Position numbers and translations under genes: made by a program. A stretch of 64,000 nt of DNA. Source: an uncultured Prevotellaceae bacterium. GTDB lineage: Bacteria > Bacteroidota > Bacteroidia > Bacteroidales > Muribaculaceae. Location: NCBI GenBank assembly GCA_900318065.1, contig ONIY01000006.1, positions 1 through 64,000 of the forward strand, read 5' to 3'. The notes under the pieces are model-generated. The model did not search any database. It had not been told where the DNA came from and saw only the letters and a program-made list of their open reading frames with translations. Of the stretch, positions 12,021 through 62,402 are shown in pieces (position 1 is the stretch's first letter; the number at the start of each line of letters is the position of its first letter).

Positions 12021-12021
12021 T

Positions 12022-12052: not shown

Positions 12053-12089
12053 TTCGCATCCTCCATATAAAATGTTCCCCACCATTTTC

Positions 12090-12120: not shown

Positions 12121-12154
12121 CAACCATGTTTAATAATAATTGTATATTATATAT

Positions 12155-14300: not shown

Positions 14301-14315
14301 TTCTCTTGTTGTGGT

Positions 14316-16060: not shown

Positions 16061-16119
16061 AGTCAAAACCAAAAAAAATCGCCCTAATTGAGAAAAAATC
16101 CTCAAAAAGTTTTTGTATT

Positions 16120-16141
16120 TAGGAAATTTCCTATATCTTTG
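16120..16141 (+). promoter_or_regulatory. Early promoter with 14-bp palindromic operator
   Basis: TAGGAAATTTCCTA (16120-16133) is a perfect palindrome directly before the -7 box TATCTTTG (16134-16141). It fits a repressor operator that blocks the rightward early promoter, 85 bp before the first early gene. Confidence 0.65.
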
Positions 16142-16225
16142 CAGCGTCATTCATTATTGAACGGCGCGCCAAAGGTACGAAAATTTGGCGAGATAGACGA
16201 ATTTTAACAGTTAAAACTTAAAAAT

Positions 16226-44604: not shown

Positions 44605-47600
44605 ATGACAGAGCAAGAGAAACAAGAAATCAAGCAGGAAGTGCTGAACGCCATCAAGAGCGAGAGCCAGGGCGTGACGGAACTGGAGGAAGTGTCGAGC
44701 CTTGACGGGGTGAAGACCCTGCCCGCGCTTCGCGGCACGGAACTGGTGAGTGCGCCTGTAAGTCTGCTGGGCAAGCCGGCTACCGATGCGGCAGCGCAGG
44801 CACTGGCAGCGAAAGCAGCGGCAGAAGGAGCAGCCGGAACCGCCAACACCGCCGCGGGCAATGCCGACGCAAAGGCTCAGGCGGCACAGACGGCGGCACA
44901 AGCGGCCACGGATGCGAAAGAAGCGACGGAGCAAGCCACACAAGCAGCCGAAGCCGTGGTGGAACAATATGAGGACGTGGCAGTGTTGGCTCGGAACGGT
45001 GCCACAGCCCGTTTTGCCGGCATATTGGATGACGTGACGCTGGCGGAGCAGAGCTTCACCAGTGTGGATGCCATCTACTATGTGACGGCGAAGAAACTGT
45101 TTGTCGGCAAGAATGGCACAAGATACAGCATGTCTTGGAAAGGTTGTGAAATGTACAACGACCTGACCGCTGACCCGATAGGCATCAGGAAGGACAAACT
45201 CTACCTGCAGGGCGACACACTCTATGCCTGGAGCGACGAAGATAATGCCCTTGTGGAGGCCAGCGGCACCGGCGGCGGCAATACCATCAACGTGACGGAG
45301 ACCTATCCGCTGGACAATGGCTTTTACACCCTTGCCACCGCCATCAGAGCCGTGGAGGAGAAGAAGCGCGTGAAAGGCGCATGTGTGACCTTCGAGGTGA
45401 GCCAGGGCAAGTGGCAGACGAAGCAGTTTGTGGGTACCAGCCTGACCAGTTGGGAGAGCGAGAGCAGCTGGGACGACTTCGGCGGTGGCGGCACGGTGAA
45501 GAGCGTGACGCTGAACGGTCAGAAGAAGACCCCCGACGCCCAAGGCAACATAGACCTGACGGTGGACGAGTTGACGGTGGATGCGAGCCTGGATGCCCAG
45601 AGCACGAACCCTGTGGAGAACCGCGCCGTTGCTGGCAAGTTCAACGAGATAGAGAGTGCGACCCTGTTTGACAGCGACGTGGAGGAAGGCGACGACGGCA
45701 CCCAGACGGTGACGCTGAAGAACAAGAGCGGTGCGGCCATTACCCAGTTCACGCTGGCAGCCGGCGGTGGCGGTGGCGGCGGCGACACCCAGGCGACGAA
45801 GATTGTGCTGGGCGCAAGCGTGAACCAGGGCATCATCAAAGAAGGCGGGAACTGCGTGCTGACGTGGAGCTATGACCATCAATATACCAGCGGCGATGAT
45901 GCAGGCCAGACAACAGGGCAGAAGGCAACGGTGGAGATAAGGGTGCTTCGAGGCTCCATCCTTGCCTACAGCGTCACGACGGAAGACGTGAGCAAAGGCA
46001 CCTACACGCTGGATGTGAGCAAATACCTGCAGGTGGGCACGACCGACATCTACGTGAAGGCGACGACCACCGACCCGACTACGGGCAAGACACAGACGAA
46101 GCAGGCGTATGCGAACGTGAAGGTGGTGAACCTGAGCCTGCAGAGCAGTTACAGCCTGAGCAGCGGTCTGAGCACCGGCGGCTACGGCTCGACGGAAAGC
46201 GCGGTCATCCCCTACACCGTGCAGGGCACCGGCACGAAGGTCGTCACCCTGTATGTGGACGGGAGCCAGTACGAGACTGCGACCGTGACCAGGAGCGGCG
46301 CGACTAACGGCAGTTTCACGATACCGATGAGCGGACTGACCATAGGCCGTCACACGGTGCAGATGGTGGCCGAGATGGATGCCAGCGCCGACCTGACGCT
46401 GAGGAGCGAGAGCATCTACATGGACATCTTCAAGGCCGGCAGCAGTGCCCCGCTGATCGGCACGAAGCACACGTTCCAGGACGGACGCATCTTCACGACA
46501 GACCACCGCACCCCACGTCTGGCAGCCGGACAGTATGAGCAGCTGACCTTCGAGTATGCCGTGTATGACGCAGGCGTTACCCCTGCCCCGATGAGTGTGT
46601 GGCAGAACGGGGAGAAGGTGCAGGACGTGTCGGTTCCCCGTAGCACCCAGACCTACGCCAACCGCTTCACGGAGCAGGGCGCACAGACCATGAAACTGGT
46701 GAGCGGCGCGACGGAATACCCGTTCTATATCGACGTGAGCAAGAGCAGCATCGACGTGGAGGAAGCGACCCTTGACCTGCGGCTGAAGCTGAGCGCCGCC
46801 GGCAGGAGCAACGGCGAGAGCGACCCCGTGCACTGGGAGCACGGCGAGGTGAAGACCACCTTCGAGAACGTGGACTGGCAGACGAGCGGGTGGACCGGCG
46901 AGTCGCTGAAGCTGATGAACGGCGCGAAAGCCTACATCGACTTCAAGCCCTTCACGCAGGATGCCGCCACGACGGGCCGCACGTTTGAGGTGGAACTGAA
47001 GGTGAGCAACATCACGGACAAGGAGAGCGACGTGGTGAGTTGCCTGGACGGAGTGAAGGGCTTCCAGATCACGGCAGACAAGGCCATGATGTACACCGGC
47101 TCGACGAAGGAGGTGGAGGACGAGGACGGCAACAAGACCACCCAGCCCGTGGGCGTTGGCCGCCAGTACGGTCAGGATATGTGGGTGAAGATTGCTTTCG
47201 TGATTGGCAAGCGCTCAGAAGGGCGCCTGATGGAACTCTACGTGAACGGTACGCGCTGCGCTGCCGACATCTACGGTGACAGCGACAACTTCATGCAGGA
47301 CACGCCGAAGGGAATCACGCTGGACAGCACGGGTGCAGACGTGGAGGTGCGGACGGTGCATGTGTATGACCGTGCGCTGAGCGACGACGAGGAAATGGAC
47401 AACCACATCGTGAACCGCCAGACGCTGGACGAGATGGCCGCCCTGTTTGAAGAGAACGACGTGCTGGGCGAGGACGGACGGAGCATCGACTTCCAGAAAC
47501 TGCGTAACAAGGGCAAGGGCATCATGCTCGTGGTGCGCCAGGGCGGACTGGACCCTGTGAACGCCGAGAACAACAAGAAGACCGACTTCCTTGCCGACGT

Positions 47601-50600
47601 GCACCTGTGGCTTCCGGACGGACGGTACATCTACCTGCACAACGTATATATCAGAATCCAGGGCACGAGCTCGACGAAATACCCGACGAAGAACTACCGC
47701 ATCTACTGCGCGAAGGGAGAGAATCCGGAGATGTATATCAACGGCGTGAAGCAGACGGAACTGAAGATCGCCCTGCGCGTGGGACAGAAGAAAGTGAAGA
47801 TCCTTTGTGCCAAGGCTGACTACTCAGACTCGTCAATGGCTCAGAACACCGGCGGCGCGAAGCTGTGGAACAACCTGATGAAGTCGCTGGGGTTCCTGAC
47901 CCCGCCTCAGCAGGTGGACAGCAACGTGAGGACAGCCGTGGACGGTTTTCCTATCGACGTGTTCTCGGCAGAGAGCCTGGAGGACACGCCGACCTACTAC
48001 GGCCAGTACAACCTGAACCACGACAAGAGCGACTGGCAGGCTATCATCGGCATGGAAGGCGTGGATGGTTTCACGCCGACAGAACCCATCGCCTTCGAGT
48101 TCCTGAACAACACGCAGCCGCTGTGCCTGTTCCAGGGACAGAGCGACCTGGACGCGCAGGCGGCAGCGGAGTTTGACAACGCCCTGGAGTTCAACTACCC
48201 GGCGAAGACGGGTGGCGAGGATACGAAGTGGGCCAATGCGCCGACGGCGAAGAAAAACGCCTTCAAGCGTCTGTGGGGCTGGATTAGGGACTGTGTGCCG
48301 GCAGGCGCGACACCGAGCGACGTGAGCACGTTTGTCTCGAGCGAGTTCAAAACGGAGGTGAGCCAGTACCTGAACCTGAACTTCCTGCTGTGCTGGTGGC
48401 TGTTCACGGATTACTTCGCCAACGTGGACCAGCGGGCGAAGAACATGATAGCCGCGACGTGGGATGCGCTGGTGTGGTATCTGCTGTATTACGACGGCGA
48501 CACCCAGATTGGCGACCGCAACGACTCGATGCTGGCATACCTGTACAACGTGACGCGAGAGACGTGGGACAGCGACAAGAACAAATACGCCTTTGAGGGC
48601 CACGACTCGTGGCTGTGGTGCCTGGTTCTCGCCAACTTCAAGGATGAGATCAAGGCGATGGCCACGACGATGAGAGAGAAACTGACCGAGGAACTGGTGA
48701 ACCAGATGTTCGACGAGGAGCAGCAGGGGAACTGGTGCGGCAGAGCCTACAACAAGAGCGGCGAAATCAAGTACATCAAGCCCCAGACCGAGGGTGTGCA
48801 GACGAAGACCGGCATCGTGAAGTACCCGTATATCTACGCCCTGAAGGGTGACAAGCAGGCATTCAGGCACTGGTTCATCCAGAACCGCTTCGCCCTGCTC
48901 GACGCGAAGTATGAGACGGGCAACTATCTCTCTGACAACATAGACATGTATATGAGCCGCCAGGCGACGGAGGCGGCCAACACCATCGTGGTGAAGGCGA
49001 GCGAACTCTACTACTTCGGCTACGGCACGAACAACGCCCCCCACCTGCAGCCGAGCGAGGAGGCCAAGAAAGGCGGCACGGTGACGCTGGTGTTCAGCAA
49101 CGCCTTCACGGTGAACGACCCGATAAGAATCTACGGCGCGAGCCGCATTGCCGAACTGAACATGGAGGGAGCGGCGAACAACCTGACGGGTGACCTGAAC
49201 CTGAACAAGTGCAAGGTGCTGCGTGTGCTTGACCTGCAGACGAACGGGAGCGGCAGCACCGGCTGGTGTCTGGTACTGGACCAGTGCCGCCAGTTGACCG
49301 ACGTGAACCTGTACGGTCAGGCGAGTGCGAAGACCGGCACGCTGAGCAGCACGGAACTGGACTTCAGGAACCAGACGCGACTGAAGACGCTGGACGCTCG
49401 CGGCGTGAACGTCCAAGCGGTGCTGTTTGCTCAGGGCTGTCCTCTGACGACCGCCAAACTGGGCAGCAACATCCAGACGCTGAGACTGGAGTATCTGCCC
49501 GACCTGAAGGAGAGCGGACTGACGCTGCAGAACTGGCGGACGGTGAAGACGCTGCGCTATGCCGGTTGCCCGAACATCAGCTGGCAGTCGATGATCAGCA
49601 AGTGCGTGAACGTGGAACGTGTGCGCATCGAGGGCATCAGCGTGGAAGACGACGGAACCCTGCTGAACCGCTACAAGAACCTGAAGGGCGTGGACGCGAG
49701 CGGCAACGCCGTGGACTACTGCGCCCTTGTGGGCACGGTGCAGCTGACGAGCTACATGGACGACGAGGACTATGCCGCCATGCAAGCGAGATACCCGGAG
49801 CTGACGATCCTGCAGCCCGACTACTCGATGCTGGAGTTTGACGACACGGTGAGCGACGACGCCAACGTGAGCAACCTGGACAACGGGACGGGCTACAAGT
49901 TCGGCACGGACTATGTGGCGAGCGGCCATGTGCTGGCACTGCTGAAGAGGCGCTACCGCTGCCTGGCGAAGGTGACGAAGAAGCCGACCTCGCGGAACAT
50001 CACCCATGCAGGCGTGGCGACGACGCAGAACAATGGGGATGGCGAGGCGACCATCTATCCGCTCCATGCAGAGAACTCGAACTACTACGCCGATGCCCAG
50101 GAACTGAAGAACTGCTCGGCGGCTAAGCTGGACAGCACGGAGGGCGACTGGATGATGTATGAGCCCCACCGCTGGTTCAAGGGTGTGAACGACTACCTGA
50201 ACGGCAAGCACTATGCTTGCTGGAGCAGCAACGAGCGTATGCCGAAGAAGCCGGACTGCGACATTGTGACCCTGGACGAGATCAAGGATGCCGGTGACTA
50301 CCGGAATAACTACAAGATCATGAGCGGCAAGGAGACGCTGGCGCAGAGCTACACGGCAGACAACAGCTACGCCGTCTGCAGGGTGGGCGTGAGCGGCTAC
50401 AAGAAAGTGCGCTTCCCAAGTGTGCCAGGCACGAACCTTGTGTGTGCCGTGTTCACGGACTCAGCTGGTCTCGTAGTGGGCACGGTAGTGGTGAGCACGC
50501 TCGGCTCGAAGTTCGTTGCCGGCATGTACCTGATAGCCGACGTTCCGGCAAATGCCGTTGCCCTGAACTTCTCGATTCTGAAGACTGCGGAGTTTGACAT

Positions 50601-51486
50601 GGTGGTGCTGAGCAACAGCACGAAGATAGAGGACATGGAACCCGACTGGGTGGAGGTGGAGCCCTACCTGTGCGCCGTAGTGGGCAGCAGCGTGGTCGGG
50701 GACAAACTGAGAGCCTGTATCACCGGCGGCTCGACAGCAGCGAGCATGACGTGGACTGACTTCCACTTCTACTCTGCCCAAAGAGGTATGCAGCAGATAG
50801 ACGGCCTGATGCACAACGACATCGCCAACCTGTTCTTTGCCAAGTACGGGCGGCGAGACAGCCAGATGCAGTGCGGCGCGGGACAAAACTCAAACACCAG
50901 AACCACCGGCGGCACTGCGAAGATAGGCATGCAGGACACGGTGAACACGAACGGCACGACCGTGGGCGGCGTGGAAGGCAACGGTAAGGCCTTCTACAAG
51001 GAGACGAACACGGACGGCGAGACGGTGTTCTACCAGTTGAACAACACGAACTGCCTCGGCTACGAGGACATCTACGGCCATAAATATGATATGATGGACT
51101 GCGTGGACGTTCCGAACGACAGCGGTAACGGCGGCAAGTGGCGATACCTGATGCCTGACGGAACATACCGACGGGTAAAGGGCGTGGAGGCCACCGGCTG
51201 GATCAACGGCGTGACACACGGAAAATATATGGACGTGGTGCCAGCAGCCGCTTCGGGCAGCAGCACGACATACTATTGTGACTACTATTACTACAGTGGT
51301 TCCACAGGCCGTGTGGTCTATCGCGGCAACAACCACGCGTATGCGAATGGCGGTGTGTCGTGCGCGTATGCGTTTAGCGATGCGTCGAGCTCGCATGCGT
51401 ATGTCGGGTCGCGTCTGGCCTTCCGCGGCAAAATCGTGGTGGCGGAGAGCGTGGCCGCGTACAAGGCGGCAGTCGAGGTAGCGTAA
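44605..51486 (+). CDS. Tail adhesin, diversity-generating retroelement target
   Basis: A 2293-residue protein. The N-terminus is an Ala-rich coiled coil (about residues 50-125, AAAEGAAGTANTAAGNADAK). Ig-like beta domains follow, then a LamG-like region near residue 930 (VRTVHVYDRALSDDEEMDN) and leucine-rich-like repeats near 1570-1700. The last 130 residues are the C-type-lectin-like fold of DGR target proteins (EDIYGHKYDMMDCVDV, TYYCDYYYYSGSTG, VGSRLAFRGK). The variable repeat at 51306-51426 covers its ligand-binding face. It would bind the host receptor; the retroelement changes its specificity. Confidence 0.95.
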   Translation: MTEQEKQEIKQEVLNAIKSESQGVTELEEVSSLDGVKTLPALRGTELVSAPVSLLGKPATDAAAQALAAKAAAEGAAGTANTAAGNADAKAQAAQTAAQAATDAKEATEQATQAAEAVVEQYEDVAVLARNGATARFAGILDDVTLAEQSFTSVDAIYYVTAKKLFVGKNGTRYSMSWKGCEMYNDLTADPIGIRKDKLYLQGDTLYAWSDEDNALVEASGTGGGNTINVTETYPLDNGFYTLATAIRAVEEKKRVKGACVTFEVSQGKWQTKQFVGTSLTSWESESSWDDFGGGGTVKSVTLNGQKKTPDAQGNIDLTVDELTVDASLDAQSTNPVENRAVAGKFNEIESATLFDSDVEEGDDGTQTVTLKNKSGAAITQFTLAAGGGGGGGDTQATKIVLGASVNQGIIKEGGNCVLTWSYDHQYTSGDDAGQTTGQKATVEIRVLRGSILAYSVTTEDVSKGTYTLDVSKYLQVGTTDIYVKATTTDPTTGKTQTKQAYANVKVVNLSLQSSYSLSSGLSTGGYGSTESAVIPYTVQGTGTKVVTLYVDGSQYETATVTRSGATNGSFTIPMSGLTIGRHTVQMVAEMDASADLTLRSESIYMDIFKAGSSAPLIGTKHTFQDGRIFTTDHRTPRLAAGQYEQLTFEYAVYDAGVTPAPMSVWQNGEKVQDVSVPRSTQTYANRFTEQGAQTMKLVSGATEYPFYIDVSKSSIDVEEATLDLRLKLSAAGRSNGESDPVHWEHGEVKTTFENVDWQTSGWTGESLKLMNGAKAYIDFKPFTQDAATTGRTFEVELKVSNITDKESDVVSCLDGVKGFQITADKAMMYTGSTKEVEDEDGNKTTQPVGVGRQYGQDMWVKIAFVIGKRSEGRLMELYVNGTRCAADIYGDSDNFMQDTPKGITLDSTGADVEVRTVHVYDRALSDDEEMDNHIVNRQTLDEMAALFEENDVLGEDGRSIDFQKLRNKGKGIMLVVRQGGLDPVNAENNKKTDFLADVHLWLPDGRYIYLHNVYIRIQGTSSTKYPTKNYRIYCAKGENPEMYINGVKQTELKIALRVGQKKVKILCAKADYSDSSMAQNTGGAKLWNNLMKSLGFLTPPQQVDSNVRTAVDGFPIDVFSAESLEDTPTYYGQYNLNHDKSDWQAIIGMEGVDGFTPTEPIAFEFLNNTQPLCLFQGQSDLDAQAAAEFDNALEFNYPAKTGGEDTKWANAPTAKKNAFKRLWGWIRDCVPAGATPSDVSTFVSSEFKTEVSQYLNLNFLLCWWLFTDYFANVDQRAKNMIAATWDALVWYLLYYDGDTQIGDRNDSMLAYLYNVTRETWDSDKNKYAFEGHDSWLWCLVLANFKDEIKAMATTMREKLTEELVNQMFDEEQQGNWCGRAYNKSGEIKYIKPQTEGVQTKTGIVKYPYIYALKGDKQAFRHWFIQNRFALLDAKYETGNYLSDNIDMYMSRQATEAANTIVVKASELYYFGYGTNNAPHLQPSEEAKKGGTVTLVFSNAFTVNDPIRIYGASRIAELNMEGAANNLTGDLNLNKCKVLRVLDLQTNGSGSTGWCLVLDQCRQLTDVNLYGQASAKTGTLSSTELDFRNQTRLKTLDARGVNVQAVLFAQGCPLTTAKLGSNIQTLRLEYLPDLKESGLTLQNWRTVKTLRYAGCPNISWQSMISKCVNVERVRIEGISVEDDGTLLNRYKNLKGVDASGNAVDYCALVGTVQLTSYMDDEDYAAMQARYPELTILQPDYSMLEFDDTVSDDANVSNLDNGTGYKFGTDYVASGHVLALLKRRYRCLAKVTKKPTSRNITHAGVATTQNNGDGEATIYPLHAENSNYYADAQELKNCSAAKLDSTEGDWMMYEPHRWFKGVNDYLNGKHYACWSSNERMPKKPDCDIVTLDEIKDAGDYRNNYKIMSGKETLAQSYTADNSYAVCRVGVSGYKKVRFPSVPGTNLVCAVFTDSAGLVVGTVVVSTLGSKFVAGMYLIADVPANAVALNFSILKTAEFDMVVLSNSTKIEDMEPDWVEVEPYLCAVVGSSVVGDKLRACITGGSTAASMTWTDFHFYSAQRGMQQIDGLMHNDIANLFFAKYGRRDSQMQCGAGQNSNTRTTGGTAKIGMQDTVNTNGTTVGGVEGNGKAFYKETNTDGETVFYQLNNTNCLGYEDIYGHKYDMMDCVDVPNDSGNGGKWRYLMPDGTYRRVKGVEATGWINGVTHGKYMDVVPAAASGSSTTYYCDYYYYSGSTGRVVYRGNNHAYANGGVSCAYAFSDASSSHAYVGSRLAFRGKIVVAESVAAYKAAVEVA
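51306..51426 (+). repeat. DGR variable repeat (VR)
   Basis: 121 bp in the 3' end of the adhesin, matching 51672-51792. There are 15 differences, all where the template has A (to T 7, to C 4, to G 4). Twelve codons change, mostly Asn codons (Asn to His, Tyr, Phe, Ser, Arg), plus Tyr to Cys and Asp to Ala. No other base differs. This is the mark of adenine-specific mutagenic retrohoming. Confidence 0.97.
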
Positions 51487-51530
51487 GCGGAAAAGCGAAA
51501 ACGGGAGCGAAGCGACAAAGCGTAAAGCGT

Positions 51531-51576
51531 GATGTCTGAGGTACGAAGACATCAAGAAATACGGGCGTAAGCCCGT
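51531..51576 (+). other. Two hairpins downstream of the VR
   Basis: GATGTCT (51531-51537) pairs with AGACATC (51547-51553). ACGGGC-GTAA-GCCCGT (51561-51576) is a perfect 6-bp stem with a 4-base loop. DGR targets often have such a stem-loop behind the VR that aids target recognition; the distance here (about 105-135 bp) is longer than in the Bordetella phage. They could instead end adhesin transcription, though no T tract follows. Confidence 0.55.
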
Positions 51577-51616
51577 CGAAGTTGGTGGAATTTTCGGTAG
51601 CCTCGCTGAAAATGAG

Positions 51617-51624
51617 TACCTTTG
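51617..51624 (+). promoter_or_regulatory. Promoter -7 box before the template repeat
   Basis: TACCTTTG matches TAnnTTTG and lies 48 bp before the TR. It would start a separate transcript for the template RNA and perhaps the RT. I see no perfect -33 TTG at the usual distance. Confidence 0.6.
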
Positions 51625-52025
51625 CAGTCGGAAAGCTGACAATATGCACTTTTCAGGGTGGAAGCTCCCATAGGCCGTGTGGTCTATCGCGGCAACAACA
51701 ACGCGAATGCGAATGGCGGTGTGTCGTACGCGAATGCGAATAACGATGCGTCGAACTCGAATGCGAATGTCGGGTCGCGTCTGGACAACAACCAAAGAAA
51801 CTGAAATCGGCGTACAGCGACGGGGACGTGTCCCCAGTGCGGTGCCGAGGGAGCCGAGCCCCACCAACAGCGGCTTAACCTCTATAAAGAGGACATGACA
51901 CCGCTCATGTGCCGGAAAGGTGAAAAACGGAGTGACGGGTAGAGTTTGGTAGGTCGGTAACGGCTCGAAGAACTTGGACCCACGGAAGGAAGGCTTCGGC
52001 CTTCGCAAACAACAATTTTTGAACT
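51625..52025 (+). ncRNA. Template RNA with structured 3' spacer
   Basis: From the predicted promoter the transcript runs through TR and a 233-base spacer before the RT. The spacer holds several stems: GGGGAC-GT-GTCCCC (51822-51835), CCTCT-ATAA-AGAGG near 51882-51895 and GAAGGC-TTCG-GCCTTC (51989-52004). In the Bordetella DGR the RNA between TR and RT is needed for cDNA priming. Such a role here is inferred. A 73-codon frame over the TR is an Arg-rich shadow and not a gene. Confidence 0.65.
51672..51792 (+). repeat. DGR template repeat (TR)
   Basis: 121 bp, identical to the VR except at 15 adenines. It is rich in AAC/AAT codons in the VR frame (AACAACAACGCGAATGCGAA), the usual design that lets A-mutagenesis reach many amino acids while avoiding stops. 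It lies between the target gene and the RT on the same strand. Confidence 0.97.
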
Positions 52026-53330
52026 ATGCGCAGAGAAGGTTACATCATTGAGGAAATCGTTGAGTACGGCAATATGTCGGACTCCTTCGATACGGTGCTC
52101 CGAGGCACGAAGCGGAAACGCTCACGCCAGGGGCGCTGGCTCCTTGCGCATAGGGACGAGGTGATACGGGACCTGACGGAGCGTATAGCGTCCGGCACGT
52201 TCACCGTGAAGGACTACAGGGAGCGCGAGATCGTGGAAGGCGGCAAGCTGCGCAAGATACAGGTGCTCTCCATGTATGACCGCATCGGCGTACATGCCGT
52301 GATGAATGTCGTGGACAGGCACATGCGCAAGCGCTTTATCCGCACCACCTCGGCCAGTATCAAGGAACGCGGGATGCACGACCTGCTGGCGTATATCCGG
52401 CGCGACCTGGAGGAAGATCCTGACGGAACGCGGTACTGCTACAAGTTCGACATCTCGAAGTTCTACGACAACGTGCAGCCGGACTTTGTGATGTACTGCG
52501 TGAAGCGGATTTTCAAGGACAAAAGGCTCATTGCCCTGCTGGACGGCTTTGTCCGCATGATGCCGTCGGGCATCAGCATCGGGCTGCGTAGTTCGCAGGG
52601 GCTGGGCAATCTCTTATTGTCTGTATTTTTAGACCACTATTTGAAGGACAGGTACGGCGTGCGTCATTTCTACCGCTATTGTGATGACGGCGTGGTACTC
52701 GGAAAATCGAAAGCGGAATTGTGGCTCGTGCGTGACGTGGTACACGAACTGGTGGAGCATATAGACTTGGAGGTGAAAGCCAACGAGCGCGTGTTCCCGG
52801 TAAGTGAGGGCATCGACTTCCTGGGCTATGTGATTTACAGTTCCAAGCATGTGGAACTGCGCAAGCGCATCAAGCAGAAGATGGCCCGCAAGATGCACGA
52901 GGTCAGGAGTAGGAAAAGAAGGCGTGAATTGATAGCGAGCTTCTATGGCATGGCAAAGCACGCCAATTGTAACATGTTGTTTAATAAATTAACAGGCAAA
53001 CAGATGAAATCATTCAAGGATTTGAAAGTCGCTTACAAACCGGAGGACGGCAAGAAGCGCTTCTCTGGTGCGGTGGTAAGCATCAGGGAATTGGTGAACC
53101 TGCCCATCGTAGTCAAGGACTTCGAGACAGGCATCAAGACAGAGCAGGGCGAGGACCGCTGCATCGTGGCCATCGAGCAGAACGGCGAGCCCAAGAAGTT
53201 TTTCACCAACAGCGAGGAGATGAAGAATATCCTCGCCCAGATTAGAGAAATGCCCGACGGGTTCCCCTTCGAGACCACCATCAAGACGGAGACCTTCGGC
53301 AAAGGTAGAACCAAGTACGTTTTCACTTAG
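52026..53330 (+). CDS. DGR reverse transcriptase with extra C-terminal domain
   Basis: A 434-residue protein. Residues about 1-325 are the RT: YCYKFDISKFYDNV (first Asp), SIGLRSSQGLGNLL (the DGR-type IGxxxSQ), FYRYCDDGVVLGKS (YxDD) and GIDFLGYVIY. It copies the TR RNA into error-prone cDNA with changes at A. The last ~100 residues (LVNLPIVVKDFETG, CIVAIEQNGEPKKFFTNSEE, PFETTIK) look like a small beta-rich domain fused to the RT. No separate Avd-like gene is seen nearby. Confidence 0.93.
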   Translation: MRREGYIIEEIVEYGNMSDSFDTVLRGTKRKRSRQGRWLLAHRDEVIRDLTERIASGTFTVKDYREREIVEGGKLRKIQVLSMYDRIGVHAVMNVVDRHMRKRFIRTTSASIKERGMHDLLAYIRRDLEEDPDGTRYCYKFDISKFYDNVQPDFVMYCVKRIFKDKRLIALLDGFVRMMPSGISIGLRSSQGLGNLLLSVFLDHYLKDRYGVRHFYRYCDDGVVLGKSKAELWLVRDVVHELVEHIDLEVKANERVFPVSEGIDFLGYVIYSSKHVELRKRIKQKMARKMHEVRSRKRRRELIASFYGMAKHANCNMLFNKLTGKQMKSFKDLKVAYKPEDGKKRFSGAVVSIRELVNLPIVVKDFETGIKTEQGEDRCIVAIEQNGEPKKFFTNSEEMKNILAQIREMPDGFPFETTIKTETFGKGRTKYVFT

Positions 53331-53335: not shown

Positions 53336-53821
53336 ATGCAAAGGACAGAAGGAACCGCCGGTGTAAAACTGATTGAATGCGTCAGCCCGGCAAGAAACAA
53401 GTGGCGCGTCCGCTGGGACGTGCAGGAACATGAGGACGGATCTGCCGACTACATGGAGGCGGAGTTCGCCCACAAGCCGACTGACGAGGAAATCAAGGCC
53501 GCTGTCATTGGCTGGTACAATCAGCAGACCGACCAGACCATCCTGTCCGGCTTCGAGTATGAGGGCGACCCTGTGTGGCTGTCCTCTGAGAACCAGTTCA
53601 ACTACAAGGCAGCCTACGACCTCGCCGTACAGTCGAATGGTACGACGCTACCTGTGAAGTTCAAGTTCGGTACAGACGAGCAGCCGAAGTATCGGGTGTT
53701 TGAAAGACTGGAGGAACTGGCTGACTTCTACACGAAGGCCATGCGTTTTATCCAGGACACGCTGGATGCTGGATGGCAGAAGAAAGATGCGTTCAACCCG
53801 GAAGACTATCGGGATGAATAA
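53336..53821 (+). CDS. DUF4376-like protein behind the RT
   Basis: A 161-residue protein: WRVRWDVQEHEDGSADYMEA, then DPVWLSSENQFNYKAAYDLA and LPVKFKFGTDEQPKYRVFER. The WLS-ENQ-N-KAAYD and P-KFKFG pattern resembles DUF4376-type tail fibre accessory proteins. It starts 5 bp after the RT, so it is made with it. It might help fold the adhesin or take part in the DGR; the sequence does not decide. Confidence 0.6.
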   Translation: MQRTEGTAGVKLIECVSPARNKWRVRWDVQEHEDGSADYMEAEFAHKPTDEEIKAAVIGWYNQQTDQTILSGFEYEGDPVWLSSENQFNYKAAYDLAVQSNGTTLPVKFKFGTDEQPKYRVFERLEELADFYTKAMRFIQDTLDAGWQKKDAFNPEDYRDE

Positions 53822-55957: not shown

Positions 55958-55962
55958 CCTCT
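55958..55962. repeat. Target-site duplication CCTCT (right)
   Basis: Second copy of the 5-bp host sequence found at 14777-14781. Host recombinase sequence continues from here. Confidence 0.9.
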
Positions 55963-56377
55963 CTATATTTCCCATCTCAGCCAAAACGGTAATAAGGATG
56001 GATGCAATTGGGTTGACTTCTCCATTAGGTTGCAGCGAGTATAAGCCAAGGTTCTGAATGTAGACTGAAACCTTAGCCTCATGTAGCTGCTCAAGGGATT
56101 TCAGTACTTGCAGCGTCGATCTCCCTAAGCGGCTCAGTTCAGATAGTAGGAGGTAATCGACATGGTTCTTGGTGCAGTAGTCAAGGCACTCGGTCAGAAC
56201 TTGTCGCTCCTCATTTTTCTTCGCCCCTGAAATATGCTCTTCATAGATTTTGACAATTTCCATATCCTGGGCTTCGCTGAATTTTTGAAGGTCTGTGATT
56301 TGTCGTGATGTGTCCTGCCTGTCATTTTCAGAACTCACCCTGGCATAAATCACGGCCCTCTTGTTTTTTGCGTTCAT
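55963..56377 (-). pseudogene. Serine recombinase, 5' part (catalytic domain), cut by prophage
   Basis: From ATG 56377 (MNAKNKRAVIYARVSSENDR) the catalytic Ser lies in ARVSSEN, with SRLGRS arginines near residue 88. The host part stops after LAEMGNIER. Beyond 55958 the frame runs into the phage for about 11 foreign residues (YNPQNEMFLKN) and stops. It keeps the catalytic domain but has lost the DNA-binding domain at 14552-14781. The full gene was about 210 residues, a resolvase/invertase size. Confidence 0.9.
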
Positions 56378-56494
56378 AATAATCTTTGAATTAAAAGAAT
56401 ATATTGAAAGGGTGTATCCATTAGCCGTTACAGACTTTTTTGAATACACCCATGAAATGAACACACTAATGGCTCATCGGCAGCACTAGTGTTA

Positions 56495-56848
56495 CTATCC
56501 TGTGACAATACCGTATTCCTGACAAATCCTTTCGCTGTAATTGTCAGTTTTCTCCACAGCATCATCTATCACAGAAATCAAGTCTCCAAGGAAGATGTGT
56601 TCTGTAGTTTTCACAATTCTCTCATTTTCGTCGATAAGTGAAACCTCGAATAAATCTTCTCCTTCGTTATATGCCACCTGGGCATTTCCCTTGTGCTTAA
56701 ACCCTTGCACATGAAACTTAACACCCAGATTTATCACATGTATTGAAGCCGGGTCTATTCCCCAGCTCCAAACAACAGGTAAATTGCTCTTGAAAATCTC
56801 AAAGATATACTCAGCTATTTTCAAGTTATAGTCGAAATCTCTGTCCAT
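56495..56848 (-). CDS. Hypothetical protein of the recombinase element
   Basis: A 117-residue protein (MDRDFDYNLKIAEYIFEIFK, HVINLGVKFHVQGFKHKGNA). It lies 5 bp behind the HTH gene and 117 bp ahead of the recombinase start. No family recognised. Confidence 0.65.
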   Translation of the reverse strand: MDRDFDYNLKIAEYIFEIFKSNLPVVWSWGIDPASIHVINLGVKFHVQGFKHKGNAQVAYNEGEDLFEVSLIDENERIVKTTEHIFLGDLISVIDDAVEKTDNYSERICQEYGIVTG

Positions 56849-56853
56849 AATAG

Positions 56854-57156
56854 TTAATTGCCAATTTTGTTACGTTCAATTAATTCAATAATCTCACTAC
56901 GTTTGAATTTTACTTTTCTGCCAATTTTATAGCATTTAATTATTCCTGCCTTTCTCCATTGATAAAGTGTACGGGTGGTTATCTGGAACATTTTTGACGC
57001 TTCATGATGGTCAATATACTCATCCTTACACAAAATCGGGTTTGTGGAAAATAGATCTTGCAAATAAGTTTTTATCTCACGTAGTTCACTCTTAACCTCT
57101 TCTAAATCATCAGGTTTAATGATGATAAGTTGATTGGTGATGTCATCCATAGTCAT
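56854..57156 (-). CDS. Excisionase-like HTH_17 (MerR-type) protein
   Basis: A 100-residue protein. Residues about 48-97 (EYIDHHEASKMFQITTRTLY, then WRKAGIIKCYKIGRKVKFKR) are the HTH_17 DNA-binding domain used by excisionases and regulators of Bacteroidota mobile elements. The N-terminal half is helical. It overlaps the preceding small gene by 4 bp. It may direct or control the recombinase that followed. Confidence 0.8.
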   Translation of the reverse strand: MTMDDITNQLIIIKPDDLEEVKSELREIKTYLQDLFSTNPILCKDEYIDHHEASKMFQITTRTLYQWRKAGIIKCYKIGRKVKFKRSEIIELIERNKIGN

Positions 57157-57332
57157 TTCTTGTTAATGTCCTTGATTAACTTTCGATTAAGTGCGTTTAA
57201 GGCTTTATAAACTCGCTGGTATGCCTTCTCGTATTCGGTTCCCTGGAGTCTCAGCCCTGCACTTACCAAATCATTTCCAGCGTTAAACACATCTTTCTGT
57301 GCCCAACGCAATTCTTGTTCACTCAGTCTCAT
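57153..57332 (-). CDS. Small helical protein
   Basis: A 59-residue protein (MRLSEQELRWAQKDVFNAGN to LNRKLIKDINKK). Both ends overlap its neighbours by 4 bp (ATGA), which strongly supports it as a real coupled gene. Family unknown. Confidence 0.65.
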   Translation of the reverse strand: MRLSEQELRWAQKDVFNAGNDLVSAGLRLQGTEYEKAYQRVYKALNALNRKLIKDINKK

Positions 57333-57550
57333 CCTAGCACAATGTATTTAGTGTTAACATCTTCTTCGCTCACACCAAAAGGAAGGCCGTAGCTAATTTC
57401 TTCGCCTTTCAAGTGAGAGAAAAGGTAAAATAGCTCATGAAACGAATTGCCCTCGTCGTCGCCGGAGATTAAGATATACTTGTCTCCATTGCCTTTCGCT
57501 ATCTCCTCCTTACATGCTTTAAGGAGCTGCTTTATAGTGATTGTCTCCAT
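57329..57550 (-). CDS. Small hypothetical protein
   Basis: A 73-residue protein (METITIKQLLKACKEEIAKG, DKYILISGDDEGNSFHELFY). It is coupled to the next gene by ATGA and lies 5 bp after the previous one. The VxISGDDEGN-H-L pattern is common in small proteins of Bacteroidota conjugative elements. Function unknown. Confidence 0.65.
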   Translation of the reverse strand: METITIKQLLKACKEEIAKGNGDKYILISGDDEGNSFHELFYLFSHLKGEEISYGLPFGVSEEDVNTKYIVLG

Positions 57551-57555
57551 AGTTG

Positions 57556-57807
57556 TTACATTAAATAGATTGTGTTGTTAATTACCGTCTTGTAAGTGCA
57601 GCCGTCCTCAGGGATTCGCACCTTCTTGAATACATACTGCCACCAATGGTCTTTTCTCAAAGGAGTCTGGTCCATTAGCATTTCAACGATTGATTTGTGA
57701 ATTGGGAAGACATAGGTCAAAGCTCTACGTCGACTTCCATCACTGAGTTGTAGCCAGTACTTGATAGTCATGGCTTTCGTCTTTGCTTTAGTTTTTGTTC
57801 GTGCCAT
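57556..57807 (-). CDS. Small basic hypothetical protein
   Basis: An 83-residue protein starting MARTKTKAKTKAMTIKYWLQ, with SDGSRRRALTYVFPIHKS. The Lys/Thr-rich start may bind nucleic acid. Part of the minus-strand row of small genes. Family unknown. Confidence 0.6.
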   Translation of the reverse strand: MARTKTKAKTKAMTIKYWLQLSDGSRRRALTYVFPIHKSIVEMLMDQTPLRKDHWWQYVFKKVRIPEDGCTYKTVINNTIYLM

Positions 57808-57812
57808 AGTCG

Positions 57813-57968
57813 TTAAAGTTTTTGAGTCCTGATGAGCTCCAGCCTATCGATCCCCCAGTACTCATGTTCAACTTCTTGTCTTGCTTCACTCTCTGTTCTA
57901 GCGTCGACCCAGATATTTGAACCATCTGGATCACCTGCTTGGTAGATTCTGAAATAAAATCTTGTCAT
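57813..57968 (-). CDS. Small hypothetical protein
   Basis: A 51-residue protein, MTRFYFRIYQAGDPDGSNIW followed by VDARTESEARQEVEHEYWG. It stops 5 bp before the next start. The pattern is regular and protein-like; family unknown. Confidence 0.55.
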   Translation of the reverse strand: MTRFYFRIYQAGDPDGSNIWVDARTESEARQEVEHEYWGIDRLELIRTQKL

Positions 57969-58038
57969 GTTGATTACGTTTTATGCAGCAAGAGCCCCCA
58001 TGTGATGATGAGAGCCCTTGTTGCTGGTTAATAAACTT

Positions 58039-59004
58039 CTATAGATAGTCTCGCGTTTTCCAATATTCGATATCATCCTTCACCATGTCATAGGTTTGCT
58101 CCAACTCCAGCTTATTGATAGATGGATAGTAGTCTTTGAACACGGCCCAGATATCATTGAAACTTAGCTCGGGATGACTGGTAACTACTTCATAGATTTC
58201 ATCATAGTAGTAGTCGTAGAAGCCATTATCATAAAAGGCGCTATAGCCACCCTTATACTCGTACTCGTGTGGATATACGTCAGTGCAGTTCTCAATTATA
58301 TGCTCAACTAATGCCAAGCAATTGAGCAAATCGGCCTTTACTGTATATTCCTGGTCAGTGTGAGGTTGATAATAACCACATGACATATTACAGCAGCTTA
58401 CGTTCAGTCCTTTCTCTTTCAAGGTCAAAACATCGGTCATCATTCCGCTTTCCTCTTGATAACCGAAGTCCTTGTATCCGGTTGCCTCGAGAAATTGGGT
58501 GGTACATAACTCGGTACAGCAAATATTTGTTATTATATCGCTGTTCCCACGTCTATCGCATTCTATCACGAACCTACAGTCATCGAAGAAATCCATTTTT
58601 GCTTTGCCACTGCCAACACAGCCGGTCTCCTCGCCAACGAAGAATGCAACTTTAAGCACGTTAAATTTCTCTAGGCATTTTAAGGCAATAAAAATTCCAT
58701 TTTTATCGTCTGCCCCAAGTCCTTCAAATCGCTTGTTCTTAGCGCTCCAACCAAAGATTATGTCGTTAGTTTCTATAGCTTGAAAATCTTTAGAATGTTG
58801 AGTCTGTACTTGGTCAATGTGAGCCACAATGCAGGGATAGGTTTCAGCACAATCTTTCGTTACATAGATATTGCCCACCTTTTTATCCAGTTCAATCTTG
58901 CAGTCCTTCATGTGATGTTTTATGTACCACAATAGGAACTGGATCATCTTCTGTTCTTTACCCGACTTTGTATGTATCGAGTAGATTTTCTTTAGTAGTT
59001 TCAT
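58039..59004 (-). CDS. M20/M28-type metallopeptidase-like protein
   Basis: A 321-residue protein with all ligands of an M20-like di-zinc peptidase: PCIVAHIDQVQ (His), GLGADDKNGIFI (bridging Asp), GEETGCVGSGKA (catalytic and ligand Glu), RFVIECDRRGNSD (Asp/Glu) and YYQPHTDQEYT (His). It resembles PepT-like aminopeptidases without the dimerisation domain, hence its short size. Such genes occur in Bacteroidota mobile elements; the substrate is unknown. It starts 2 bp after the preceding stop. Confidence 0.8.
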   Translation of the reverse strand: MKLLKKIYSIHTKSGKEQKMIQFLLWYIKHHMKDCKIELDKKVGNIYVTKDCAETYPCIVAHIDQVQTQHSKDFQAIETNDIIFGWSAKNKRFEGLGADDKNGIFIALKCLEKFNVLKVAFFVGEETGCVGSGKAKMDFFDDCRFVIECDRRGNSDIITNICCTELCTTQFLEATGYKDFGYQEESGMMTDVLTLKEKGLNVSCCNMSCGYYQPHTDQEYTVKADLLNCLALVEHIIENCTDVYPHEYEYKGGYSAFYDNGFYDYYYDEIYEVVTSHPELSFNDIWAVFKDYYPSINKLELEQTYDMVKDDIEYWKTRDYL

Positions 59005-59006
59005 GT

Positions 59007-59411
59007 TTACACAGCTATTAAAGTTTCCTCCTCGACTTCTTGCTCTTGCTCTGCCTCAAAGCCAAAAGGAAGCTTGGTTAGTTCGTTAATCTGGTCGTAA
59101 ATCTCGTTTCCATGCTTGTGAAGAATCTCACAGTCTACATAGAGGTCAACCACTTTCTTTCTAATGGTTTTCTCCTCATAGATACCTTCTTCCTTATTCC
59201 AAGCATGGTAGGTGGTAAGTTCATCTGCATTCTCGAAATACTCTTTATCGAAATCACAGTAGAACCAGTTCTTTTTCTTAAATTCAAGCTCTGCCTGATT
59301 CTTGCAATCGTCACAGCAGAAGTCCTGATTCAACAAATCACTGTGAGAGTGCTCGTCTCGTGGGTAATACTCAGGATCAAGAAAACGTCCAGAGCAATAA
59401 GGACAATCCAA
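59007..59411 (-). CDS. Zinc-ribbon-containing protein, likely 3' part of a split gene
   Basis: A 134-residue frame starting MDCPYCSGRF with a second pair CCDDCKNQ and a third CDFDKEYFE. The frame is open upstream of the ATG, coding EDYDGDWIHYEDILDC, which would be the natural continuation of the gene before it. So the real gene probably begins at or before 60166, and a one-base slip near 59465 splits it. The end is acidic. Confidence 0.6.
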   Translation of the reverse strand: MDCPYCSGRFLDPEYYPRDEHSHSDLLNQDFCCDDCKNQAELEFKKKNWFYCDFDKEYFENADELTTYHAWNKEEGIYEEKTIRKKVVDLYVDCEILHKHGNEIYDQINELTKLPFGFEAEQEQEVEEETLIAV

Positions 59412-60166
59412 GATATCCTCATAGTGAATCCAATCGCCATCATAGTCTTCAAAATCTCTTCAAAATCGTCTAAGTCCTCACTGTCGCAACTCATTTCAGA
59501 TCCATGATAATAGACAGTAACAGTATCGGCCACATCACGATCATGATATTCATCGTAAGCGCTCTCTTCATCCTCAATCTCGCCGTTCGTAGTGTCCAAG
59601 CGATATTGATAGTCGCAATCAGAATAATTGTAGGCTACATTATCATCCATGTTATACCACTTGAACGAGTCCTGGTAACTGAGATAATCACCCCAGTCCA
59701 AGTCACATGAAATAGTGAATCTCTTGCAGTTAAGTGAGTTTCCTTCATTATCGACGAAACCTCTTGAATTTCCACAGTCTGCCCCGACGAACTTATATCC
59801 GTCAATCTGGTTGTCTTGAATTAAAGAATCAACAAGTGCTCTCTTAAGAATCTCGTTGGAATCTGATGAGTACTGCCTTTCACACAGCCTCCAAACTTTC
59901 CCGTCCTCGTCTTTTGCGGCAGTATAAATCACAGCTCTCGCAATCACTTTATCGTTCTTATTGGTGAGATATGCTGCTTTTGCCTTGACTGCATCACTAT
60001 AGAAAGATGAAAGTCCACGGCCGGTCATGCATGAATGAAAATCACCTTCACATGCCTCTCTGCTATAAATCTTCTCGAAATTATCGTCAACGTGAAGGGT
60101 GTATTTGGGAAGCGACCCCTGTACATAAACCTGCCAGTCCATGCAGAACTCCTCAGCCAGGAACAC
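59330..60166 (-). CDS. Hypothetical protein, likely 5' part of a split gene
   Basis: A 278-residue frame from GTG 60166. The first ~230 residues are regular (MDWQVYVQGSLPKYTLHVDD, HSCMTGRGLSSFYSDAVKAK, GSEMSCDSEDLDDFEEIL). The last ~45 residues change to a hydrophobic non-native tail where it overlaps the zinc-ribbon gene in another frame. Open frame also continues upstream to the stop of the 60254 gene without ATG (KKAGRFYTQLIEETSIGKAL). Corrected, the protein would be about 390 residues or more. Function unknown. Confidence 0.6.
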   Translation of the reverse strand: MFLAEEFCMDWQVYVQGSLPKYTLHVDDNFEKIYSREACEGDFHSCMTGRGLSSFYSDAVKAKAAYLTNKNDKVIARAVIYTAAKDEDGKVWRLCERQYSSDSNEILKRALVDSLIQDNQIDGYKFVGADCGNSRGFVDNEGNSLNCKRFTISCDLDWGDYLSYQDSFKWYNMDDNVAYNYSDCDYQYRLDTTNGEIEDEESAYDEYHDRDVADTVTVYYHGSEMSCDSEDLDDFEEILKTMMAIGFTMRISWIVLIALDVFLILSITHETSTLTVIC

Positions 60167-60253
60167 TTTTACCTGTTGTGGAAGTGCTTTACCAATTGAT
60201 GTTTCCTCGATAAGCTGGGTATAGAATCGACCCGCCTTCTTTTTGAAAATGTC

Positions 60254-60604
60254 TTACCGCTCGTGATTGTAGTAACGAACGAAGCCGATAGTCCCGTCCT
60301 CTGGCACACCTCTGTATTCATCAGTCTCACATATGCCCGAGTAATAGACGTACTTACCTAAAACCACATCATAGGCAAGATTCTCATTCCTGCCTGCCTC
60401 AATGATTTTATTTGTAACCACTTGCTTAAGCTCGGCCATACTTGATATTCCGAGCAAATCGTAGTCACCATGTTCTCGACACCAGCGCCATACCTCTTTC
60501 GACTTAAGTAGCGCCAGTAAGATTTTGTTCCTTCTTGTGCCGTTAGAGATTCCAAATAAACCTTGGAACTCAGTAGCATTGTTAAAACTTCTGATTTTGT
60601 TCAT
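60254..60604 (-). CDS. Hypothetical protein of the host element
   Basis: A 116-residue protein (MNKIRSFNNATEFQGLFGIS, NGTRRNKILLALLKSKEVWR). The next open frame begins in the same register directly after its TAA, so read-through or an ancestral fusion is possible. No family recognised. Confidence 0.6.
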   Translation of the reverse strand: MNKIRSFNNATEFQGLFGISNGTRRNKILLALLKSKEVWRWCREHGDYDLLGISSMAELKQVVTNKIIEAGRNENLAYDVVLGKYVYYSGICETDEYRGVPEDGTIGFVRYYNHER

Positions 60605-60644
60605 TTTTCTTGTCTTTAAAATGTTGATAATTAGTTTGTTTTAA

Positions 60645-60683
60645 ATGAAAAAAGAGGACCCACATTTTGTTGTGAATCCTCTT
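60645..60683 (-). terminator. Terminator behind the DUF3871 gene
   Basis: On the minus strand AAGAGGA (60683-60677) pairs with TCCTCTT (60658-60652), followed by a run of T. It lies 26 bp after the DUF3871 stop. Confidence 0.75.
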
Positions 60684-60708
60684 CGGTTCATGGCTACATA
60701 CGGCCGGC

Positions 60709-61725
60709 TTAACTAATAAACCAGCTATACCCACTGTCTTCGTTTCTTAGTCCCTGTGCTATGCCAAGACTCGTTGTAAGTGCATTCGCCTCTCTTGCCA
60801 GGAAAGTGTCTATATAGCTTCCCTTACATGCACCAGTCAATAGGTTGTAGAAATCCCACATGCTCAGCTCTCCGTTATCGTCGACGCTGAAATTTGGGTC
60901 TCTGTAGTATTGCCTTGCTACATTGTTCACCATTGAATCGGTGATAAGCATCTGCGGTATCTCCCTCTGTATCTTAGCTGGGAGATAATTGTACAGGCGC
61001 ATTTTCCCAAGAATTAATGCGAATTGAGTCTCAGACAGGTAAAGGTCTTCAAGCGATTTCAGCAGGTAGATGTGCTTTGCCATGTCGTAAGTGTCGAGCA
61101 AATGAAGCGAGTGTTGGTAGATCTCGCTTGGTGATATTGCTCTAATCTCGTCTCGATAGCCGTCTGTCCAAATGCATTGGTTACAGCAGACGGTATTCTG
61201 GAAGCCGACAGCGAGTGAAAATTTCTGTGCTGTCAGTCTCCCGTTTAGATTGTCTCGGCCATAGGACTTAACTCCCACGACCGACAAGTTCAGCCTGTTA
61301 CCATTCACGTCCTTATGAATACTAGGCACGTTTATGCAAAAGGCCATTCTCTCGTAATATTGCGTCATTTCATGTGGAAGCAGTTCAGAGCTTTTCTTGT
61401 TAATCGCTTCTGGAATTCTGCCTCGAATAATATGACTTACTCTTACCTGGGGCTCCTCAATTTGCTCTGACCGATAATAGTCACGTATAGCTTGATATGT
61501 TGCCCCGATAAATTGTGAGTGTGATAGAACCGCCTCATTATCTTTTGCGAAATTTGGTATCACACAGACGTTCTGAAGGCTCTCTAAGGTTATAGGTATA
61601 GAGTTAGCCTCGATGAATGGGGATGGTGTTGTGGAATCATCCCCAATGGTTTGATTGTCCACCACTTCTGCAGCTACTATAGGAAGGTAGCTCGGGTGAA
61701 CCATTGTAGTTGTTTGTTCTTCCAT
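60709..61725 (-). CDS. DUF3871 protein
   Basis: A 338-residue protein with the DUF3871 pattern: IRGRIPEAINKKSSELLPHE, YERMAFCINVPSIHKDVNGN, KFSLAVGFQNTVCCNQCIWT and SMWDFYNLLTGACKGSYIDT. It resembles phage/plasmid DUF932-type proteins. It is typical of Bacteroidota conjugative or mobilisable elements; its activity is unknown. Confidence 0.85.
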   Translation of the reverse strand: MEEQTTTMVHPSYLPIVAAEVVDNQTIGDDSTTPSPFIEANSIPITLESLQNVCVIPNFAKDNEAVLSHSQFIGATYQAIRDYYRSEQIEEPQVRVSHIIRGRIPEAINKKSSELLPHEMTQYYERMAFCINVPSIHKDVNGNRLNLSVVGVKSYGRDNLNGRLTAQKFSLAVGFQNTVCCNQCIWTDGYRDEIRAISPSEIYQHSLHLLDTYDMAKHIYLLKSLEDLYLSETQFALILGKMRLYNYLPAKIQREIPQMLITDSMVNNVARQYYRDPNFSVDDNGELSMWDFYNLLTGACKGSYIDTFLAREANALTTSLGIAQGLRNEDSGYSWFIS

Positions 61726-61756
61726 TTTTTCCTTTCTCTTTAAAATGGTTTGTTAA

Positions 61757-61924
61757 TTACTTCGGCGGCGGTCTCAATTTCTGATACGCCTGCCATAATT
61801 TTTTGCTTTGTTTGATAATCGTTGCTATAGTCTCAAGCCCGATTACAATAATGTCGATGATGTTGCCCTTGTCATTTGTCGATTTCTTCTTCGTCGCACT
61901 CTTCTTCGGGGCCATCTTCATCAT
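61757..61924 (-). CDS. Small basic protein
   Basis: A 55-residue protein from ATG 61924 (MMKMAPKKSATKKKSTNDKG) with a hydrophobic middle (NIIDIIVIGLETIATIIKQS). A longer frame reaches 61987 but overlaps the neighbouring gene. It is 31 bp ahead of the DUF3871 start. Function unknown. Confidence 0.45.
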   Translation of the reverse strand: MMKMAPKKSATKKKSTNDKGNIIDIIVIGLETIATIIKQSKKLWQAYQKLRPPPK

Positions 61925-62048
61925 CGACAGTCTCTTTCTCGTCTTTTGTTTGTTTTTGTGGTCTAAAGCGGTCCCATAACTCAACACCTAAATTCATGAT
62001 GAGCATTGCCGCTGCCACAATGTTTAATGATTTAATAGTTTTCTCCAT
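61872..62048 (-). CDS. Small acidic protein with hydrophobic N-terminus
   Basis: A 58-residue protein (MEKTIKSLNIVAAAMLIMNL, then VELWDRFRPQKQTKDEKETV and a very acidic end). It overlaps the next small gene by 53 bp in another frame. The two together look like a basic/acidic pair. Function unknown. Confidence 0.5.
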   Translation of the reverse strand: MEKTIKSLNIVAAAMLIMNLGVELWDRFRPQKQTKDEKETVDDEDGPEEECDEEEIDK

Positions 62049-62402
62049 GTTTTGTCTCTCTTGTTATTGTGTTTAGTTAATAATATGTTATAATTCTCTC
62101 AATTATAAGGGGATAAGTCGAAATGAGAAAAATCAAAATCAATGCATTCTTAATCATCAAAAGTTGTAGATGTAGTGCTATAAGTCCCGAAAAAAATCGA
62201 GTTATAGCTCACTATCTCGTCTCAAAAATCCTACATTCTTCTGAAAATCACCATGTTGTATTTTTGGACTTTTATGGAATTGTATTGGGGGGAGCAGCAA
62301 GAAATTTACCACATTTCTGCACTAATCTTATAAAAAACATGCTTATATTTTTCTGGAATCGGTATTTTTTGTATATTTGCAGAAAAAAAATAAAGCACTT
62401 TT
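62049..62402 (+). other. Intergenic region with a promoter for the ATPase_2 gene
   Basis: This 354-bp region separates the leftward element genes from the rightward ATPase. It has the -7 box TATATTTG at 62372-62379, 24 bp before the ATG, inside the left repeat of that gene. A 110-codon frame across it is not convincing. Confidence 0.5.
62335..62370. repeat. Left flanking repeat of the ATPase_2 gene
   Basis: AAAACATGCTTAT begins a ~36-bp block that recurs with about six mismatches at 63867-63901 (direct repeat). Within it TGCTTATATTTTTCTGG (62340-62356) is a perfect 17-bp inverted match to 63911-63927. The repeat overlaps the promoter of the gene. Confidence 0.7.

Follow-up and report, generated by a model that had tools for sequence, protein, structure and literature searches.

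A 64,000-nucleotide stretch of DNA from an uncultured Prevotellaceae bacterium (GenBank assembly GCA_900318065.1, contig ONIY01000006.1), hereafter called the window, carries what is very probably a working diversity-generating retroelement (DGR) of the hankyphage type, located within a Mu-like prophage. The element is real and has all of its core parts; judged from its sequence, it is very likely active, and it is of a published kind. It comprises a variable repeat (VR) situated, as expected of a DGR, at the 3' end of its target gene, a template repeat (TR), a structured RNA and a reverse transcriptase (RT). Related loci are designated by L numbers.

The repeat pair and its extent

51306–51418, + strand: VR, 113 bp, in the 3'-terminal part of the target gene, with 10 mismatches to the TR; homology stops at 51418
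51403–51418, + strand: 3'-terminal stretch of the VR free of mutations, GTCGGGTCGCGTCTGG, where VR and TR are identical; the last altered core base is 51400
51419–51428, + strand: CCTTCCGCGG, coding for AFRG, immediately 3' of the VR and outside the TR/VR repeat
51672–51784, + strand: TR, 113 bp, with 26 adenines and 11 AAY codons

Both the TR and the VR are single-copy in the available genome sequence of the window. The original prediction had described a VR/TR alignment of 121 bp without gaps, in which all 15 mismatches fall at TR adenines (seven A to T, four A to C and four A to G) and 12 codons change, none to a stop. The letters, the absence of gaps and the mismatch tally were exact, but only the first 113 bp constitute the repeat. 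Within this core, 10 of 10 mismatches lie at TR adenines (26 available), an arrangement with a random-placement chance of approximately 8.6e-8; nine codons are altered through adenines, the other three lying in the stretch beyond, and no stop can be reached through the adenines of the core TR codons.

Of 51 rows, 40, among them the window and its copies L003 and L083, carry in the TR the motif CGTCTG, the mark of the repeat's end. The remaining 11, which have another end, too short an aligned stretch or are unusable, were left uncounted. One base beyond CGTCTG, the VR side reads CCTTCCGCGG in all 40 counted rows, whereas the TR side varies at the same place (ACAACAAC, AAATCAAG, CAAACTAT and more). 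Because the VR side is constant while the TR side varies, the most plausible reading of the five differences at 51419, 51421, 51422, 51424 and 51425 is that the VR end differs in a fixed way from the sequence following the TR, and not that mutagenesis has acted there. A VR of 121 bp carrying 15 adenine changes would be consistent with the fact that all five extra differences stand opposite an A in the TR-side sequence, but given the constancy of CCTTCCGCGG it is extremely unlikely, and the corresponding boundary at 51426 was rejected as lying 8 bp too far. The letters SRLAFRG are also unchanged in 35 aligned target proteins, an invariance that weighs little because the pattern used to pick the proteins already required most of those letters. 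By analogy with the Bordetella phage element BPP-1, the closing letters of the VR, GTCGGGTCGCGTCTGG, are likely to be the homing-initiation stretch (resembling the initiation of mutagenic homing site, IMH).

Evidence for activity in the phage lineage

Relatives were gathered at 135 loci; with eight partial-RT loci omitted and the window added, 128 were scanned for a VR. The original prediction had held that the system has worked in this lineage, and had proposed comparing the VR among sister prophages with the same TR. Four sister VRs (L004, L005, L006 and L084) all differ from one another and from that of the window. L005 and L006 have a 113-bp TR identical to the window's, and the 12 sites at which the VRs of the window and L005 differ are all TR adenines. 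Moreover, L005 and L006 differ from each other at 12 positions in 13,119 aligned bases, of which 11 fall in the VR, all 11 at TR adenines; they thus form a natural pair whose almost sole difference is the rewritten patch. These comparisons bear out the earlier claim, and activity of the element in the lineage is well supported at the level of sequence.

When 35 side-by-side TR/VR pairs were pooled, the window's included, 340 of 894 TR adenines were changed versus 50 of 2,886 other bases, and the changed adenines had become T in 158 cases, G in 141 and C in 41. Four VRs that fit another TR (L028, L078, L105 and L112) hold 45 of the 50 non-adenine changes. These pooled counts in effect exclude the alternative that the VR and TR are diverged copies of a gene, or a pseudo-duplication, with differences that fall on adenines by accident. 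Nothing beyond the presence of a repeat speaks for such an accident, whose probability is negligible in view of the chance value calculated for the core, the recurrence of the adenine bias across the pairs and the adjacent RT and RT-3 RNA.

It could also be argued that the window holds a fossil, that is, a decayed DGR whose VR was rewritten long ago and whose machinery is dead. Elements of this family do break, as seen in target–TR fusions at L098, L123 and L132, and the identical phage, VR included, recurs in RUG716 and L003 (the latter possibly the same record). We nevertheless consider decay very unlikely, since the RT frame is intact and retains YCDD, the window VR is free of any non-adenine change, and L005 and L006 have diverged almost only at TR adenines of the VR.

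Several observations weigh against, or limit, the reading as a working hankyphage-type DGR. L003 and L083 represent the same phage as the window and offer no independent support because they carry the window's own VR. Differences from the window VR lie off the TR adenines in 3 of 18 cases for L004 (15 at adenines) and in 1 of 14 for L084 (13 at adenines), the TRs of both being two bases different from that of the window. Support for diversification in living cells is indirect, coming from the L005 and L006 sequences. The AlphaFold2 model of the target is of low confidence (predicted local distance difference test, pLDDT, 39), and a C-type lectin fold is for it only a candidate. In addition, Avd was not recognised at the locus, where the neighbour of the RT is predicted to adopt a different fold, and the window has no BPP-1-like hairpin that starts within 45 bp downstream of the VR.

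Components of the cassette

44605–51486, + strand: target gene, 2293 amino acids (aa), tail-type, VR at the C-terminus; matches phrog_14959 (function unknown, E 0) and phrog_5302 (tail protein, E 2.8e-18)
51805–51982, + strand: structured RNA, Rfam RF03068 (RT-3), between TR and RT; 128.4 bits against a gathering threshold of 40.5, E 2.5e-32
52026–53330, + strand: RT, 434 aa, with IGLRSSQ and YCDD; matches RVT_1 (1.3e-13), phrog_1423 (1.4e-111) and 8ub7_A (1.1e-19)
53336–53821, + strand: DUF4376 protein, 161 aa, directly 3' of the RT; DUF4376 5.6e-6; AlphaFold2 pLDDT 95.3, alpha/beta

A Pfam search with the target gave no domain, and comparison with PDB sequences gave no credible match, those listed being cutinases or PET hydrolases with E values of 0.026 or worse, which were taken as chance. 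The spacer between the TR and the RT matches the whole RT-3 model, and the RNA, when aligned across 45 loci, showed a mean column identity of 53%.

The downstream RT with IGxxxSQ and YCDD motifs named in the original prediction was confirmed, as IGLRSSQ and YCDD are present and the frame is intact. We take these motifs to be marks of a DGR-class RT, and the enzyme adjoins the TR, as expected of that class. Its best match among PDB sequences is 8ub7_A, which is presumably the BPP-1 enzyme, and all of its NCBIfam matches, to group II, retron and other models, stay below the respective cut-offs. A phage collection searched with the RT protein yielded 125 matching records, the best full-length ones among the matches listed being 79–80% identical; one record outside that listing matches at 95–99%.

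The AlphaFold2 model of the DUF4376 protein contains strands and three long helices. A PDB search with the protein gave nothing at E <= 0.001, and eight matches at this threshold were found in BFVD, several of them named DUF4376. Among the relatives, a script picked 84 distinct frames following the RT, a count that leaves out loci yielding no frame; L032 and L077 are RT pieces, L036 and L120 are incomplete, and the remaining frames resemble the DUF4376 protein, as judged on the first 50 residues. The small open reading frame (ORF) beside the hankyphage RT has been labelled Avd or Avd-like (PMC6199706; PMC12135933), the comparison in PMC6199706 being based on isoelectric point and molecular weight. 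The predicted alpha/beta fold of the DUF4376 protein, together with the negative PDB search, does not support its assignment as Avd. Avd is a four-helix bundle and, to our knowledge, is not universal among DGRs. On the basis of the model, we take the DUF4376 protein to be a conserved partner of the RT and not an Avd homologue; it may have an accessory role.

Relation to hankyphage p00 and BPP-1, and proposed mechanism

The Bacteroides hankyphage, in which this family of elements was discovered, is represented by p00 (BK010646), likewise a Mu-like transposable phage with the same late-gene order as the window phage. Both contain a huge target ORF with a C-terminal VR, followed by TR, RT, a small ORF, thymidylate synthase and N6-methyltransferase, although the order of the last two is swapped between them, and the p00 record annotates VR, TR and RT at places matching those of the window. 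Adenine-only VR/TR differences and a 5-bp target duplication have been published for hankyphage (PMC6199706, Benler et al. 2018; PMC12135933), as has activity of its DGR in cultures and packaged DNA (PMC12135933). The window shares the features of the hankyphage group, namely Mu-like transposition proteins, the 5-bp duplication and the hankyphage gene order with a DGR. It is a further, ordinary example of a DGR whose architecture and activity are already published for hankyphage. The RT proteins of the window and p00 are 79% identical, and a megablast comparison restricted to the 9.8-kb query from target to methyltransferase aligned 20% at 75.6%. With genome similarity to p00 above 70% as the genus criterion, the megablast values suggest that the window phage probably falls outside the hankyphage genus, and its element extends the hankyphage type of DGR to a more distant phage.

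BPP-1, the type element, shares with the window mutagenic homing with TR, VR, RT and a structured spacer RNA (PMC3240598, PMC12875486), and its target is also tail-type; unlike BPP-1, the window has no recognised Avd and no hairpin close behind the VR. By analogy, the TR and the downstream RT-3 RNA would be transcribed, and the RT would then copy the TR portion of the transcript while misreading adenines, a step published for BPP-1 that also fits the published hankyphage activity. The resulting complementary DNA (cDNA) would replace the 113-bp VR in the 2293-aa tail-type gene, an outcome that is seen in the sequences. Since the adenines lie mostly in AAY codons, changes are confined to chosen residues and stops are impossible. 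Published work on relatives suggests that the probable gain would be a changing receptor-binding surface.

BPP-1 requires an inverted repeat just past the VR, and in relatives of BPP-1 such a repeat stands 4–34 bp behind it (PMC3240598). An inverted repeat in the window begins farther away:

51530–51554, + strand: inverted repeat TGATGTCT..AGACATCA, beginning 112 bp past the VR core

This repeat could act as a terminator or could represent a target hairpin that has been displaced. A 6-bp stem within 45 bp was found at 9 of 52 distinct VRs, and a stem of at least 6 bp in 17 of 260 shuffles. Stems of 6–14 bp starting 60–150 bp after the VR occurred at 50 of the 52 VRs, all except L005 and L006, versus 49 of 260 shuffles; the independent cases are fewer than 52 because many VR flanks are near-copies. 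The downstream inverted repeats vary in sequence and are often long where the VR is remote from the TR.

VRs that fit the template of another cassette

From comparison of the relatives, we lean towards the view that homing in this DGR family can occur in trans, between cassettes and between prophages, with the TR of one resident phage rewriting the VR of another. A pattern search found 51 distinct VRs, and for 46 of them there were TRs of equal length to set against them; 40 of the 46 have a TR with no non-adenine differences and six have a TR with one. For 44 VRs a TR came from the same genome or locus; six of these clearly misfit the expected TR (4–13 non-adenine differences) and fit another: L112 and L154 from Mediterranea massiliensis, L105 and L167 from Parabacteroides massiliensis, L078 and L028. 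Next to cassette A of Mediterranea massiliensis lies a VR that shows no non-adenine differences with the TR of the second prophage and six with its own, and the VR of the second prophage shows none with the TR of cassette A and four with its own. The same exchange was observed in Parabacteroides massiliensis (0 versus 13 and 0 versus 10 non-adenine differences). For L078, from an IMG record, the fitting TR is 25 kb away on the same contig; L028 is a fragment, and no TR found in its own record fits it. The case of L023 is less strong, with two differences from its own TR and none from the TR of other phages.

The flanks of L112 are identical to those of L111 and L114, from two other host genomes, over 700 bp upstream and 400 bp downstream, indicating that only the VR changed hands; L111 and L114 themselves have VRs that match the template of cassette A. 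Misassembly would be another explanation of crossed templates. The target frame beside cassette A in Parabacteroides massiliensis measures 787 aa instead of the usual ~2200, so that prophage is rearranged or misassembled. L112 and L154 have in common just 11 letters spanning the 5' VR boundary and 21 spanning the 3' one, so that misassembly would need two chimeric joins per VR on very short overlaps.

Crossing is not universal, as both VRs of Bacteroides finegoldii, which has two cassettes, are in cis, and Phocaeicola plebeius and Paraprevotella clara have one VR each in cis. One IMG record has a single VR between both cassettes. Because the patterns demand conserved ends, VRs with other ends escaped them, and L126/L146 (seven non-adenine differences) was left out. 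A DUF4376 family search of the order matched 4 of 393 genomes, a count that takes in the genome of the window, and with so few matches it was of no use for finding further co-resident cases. Natural exchange between resident prophages was not reported in the titles or abstract openings covered, full texts lying mostly outside that scope. If crossing of templates does occur, resident prophages would share a template pool for tail diversification and co-resident phages could diversify each other's tail proteins; the way in which the cDNA finds its target would become testable in culturable strains.

A layout with remote TR and VR

The first VR search gave no TR/VR pair at 72 of the 128 loci. A longer-range search via the target C-terminus covered 18 of these loci (16 genomes or records), the other 54 being outside it. 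In 12 of the 16 genomes or records, a TR-like place and the end of the target lie on opposite strands, separated by 24.6–26.0 kb; the rest are two target–TR fusions (L098 and L123) and two fragments, L132 being a fusion in a third genome. Relatives of the terminase, portal and head proteins of the window were found at all 12 RT loci of the remote layout, within a stretch of ~6.1 kb that ends shortly before the TR. The TR and VR show no non-adenine differences in 6 of the 12 (L102, L073, L136, L104, L089 and L030), two in L041, four in L094, ten in L135 and seven in L126, for which a fitting TR was sought only at places listed in the longer-range search; L092 and L014 were outside the TR/VR test. 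The loci of this layout that show adenine-only or nearly adenine-only differences pair as L102/L138, L089/L145, L104/L144, L136/L143, L030/L147, L041/L149 and L073/L141, and the VR fitting L073 also adjoins another cassette (L078).

Second, distal VRs have been reported in four gut prophage species (PMC12629997), and the authors of a survey note that remote targets would escape it (PMC8144416). Both the remote opposite-strand layout and the VRs carrying the TR sequence of another resident cassette seem less ordinary than the element of the window. Should the remote layout and the neighbour-written VRs hold true, homing would need little beyond matching repeat ends.

In the three fusions, the target frame reads straight into the TR (to 9881 in L098, 9834 in L123 and 9864 in L132) and there is no separate VR, as if the stretch from VR to TR had been lost by recombination or the assembly had collapsed.

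The Mu-like prophage and its insertion site

14782–55957, + strand: whole Mu-like prophage, 41,176 bp, with CCTCT at 14777–14781 and 55958–55962
15416–16150, - strand: CI-like repressor; phrog_4 (1.1e-24) and phrog_6201 (4.5e-10)
17266–19254, + strand: MuA-like transposase; phrog_310, transposase (5.3e-54); same position as the Mu A-like gene of p00
19280–20155, + strand: MuB-like transposition protein; phrog_296, DNA transposition protein (2.1e-47); same position as the Mu B-like gene of p00

The Mu-like nature of the prophage, also proposed in the original prediction, is supported by the MuA-like and MuB-like proteins, by the 5-bp duplication and by the restoration of a recombinase frame upon removal of the phage. 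Joining of the flanks through a single CCTCT gave a 246-aa open frame across the junction, whereas shifting the joint by 1–2 bases gave at most 179; the interrupted gene encodes a recombinase, with the Resolvase domain on the right-hand piece. At the right end, L004, L006, L084 and L085 match the window through GGATTATA at 55957 and then diverge from the window and from one another; L083 lacks 45 bp at the right end, so that the end is not visible there. An initial placement of the prophage ends at 15302 and 55893 was dropped because relatives share sequence to 55957. RUG716 (L083) carries the same phage with a flank that is 98.4% identical, and the phage is therefore probably at the same insertion site there. 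The surroundings of the prophage (193–14781 and 55958–63845) are rich in defence-like genes:

193–1098: AbiH match
2566–4551: RloB/AbiLii and AAA/AbiLi matches
7852–10224: ThiF/E2/JAB ubiquitin-like protein
12140–13531: AAA/AbiLi match
62403–63845: PDC-S27

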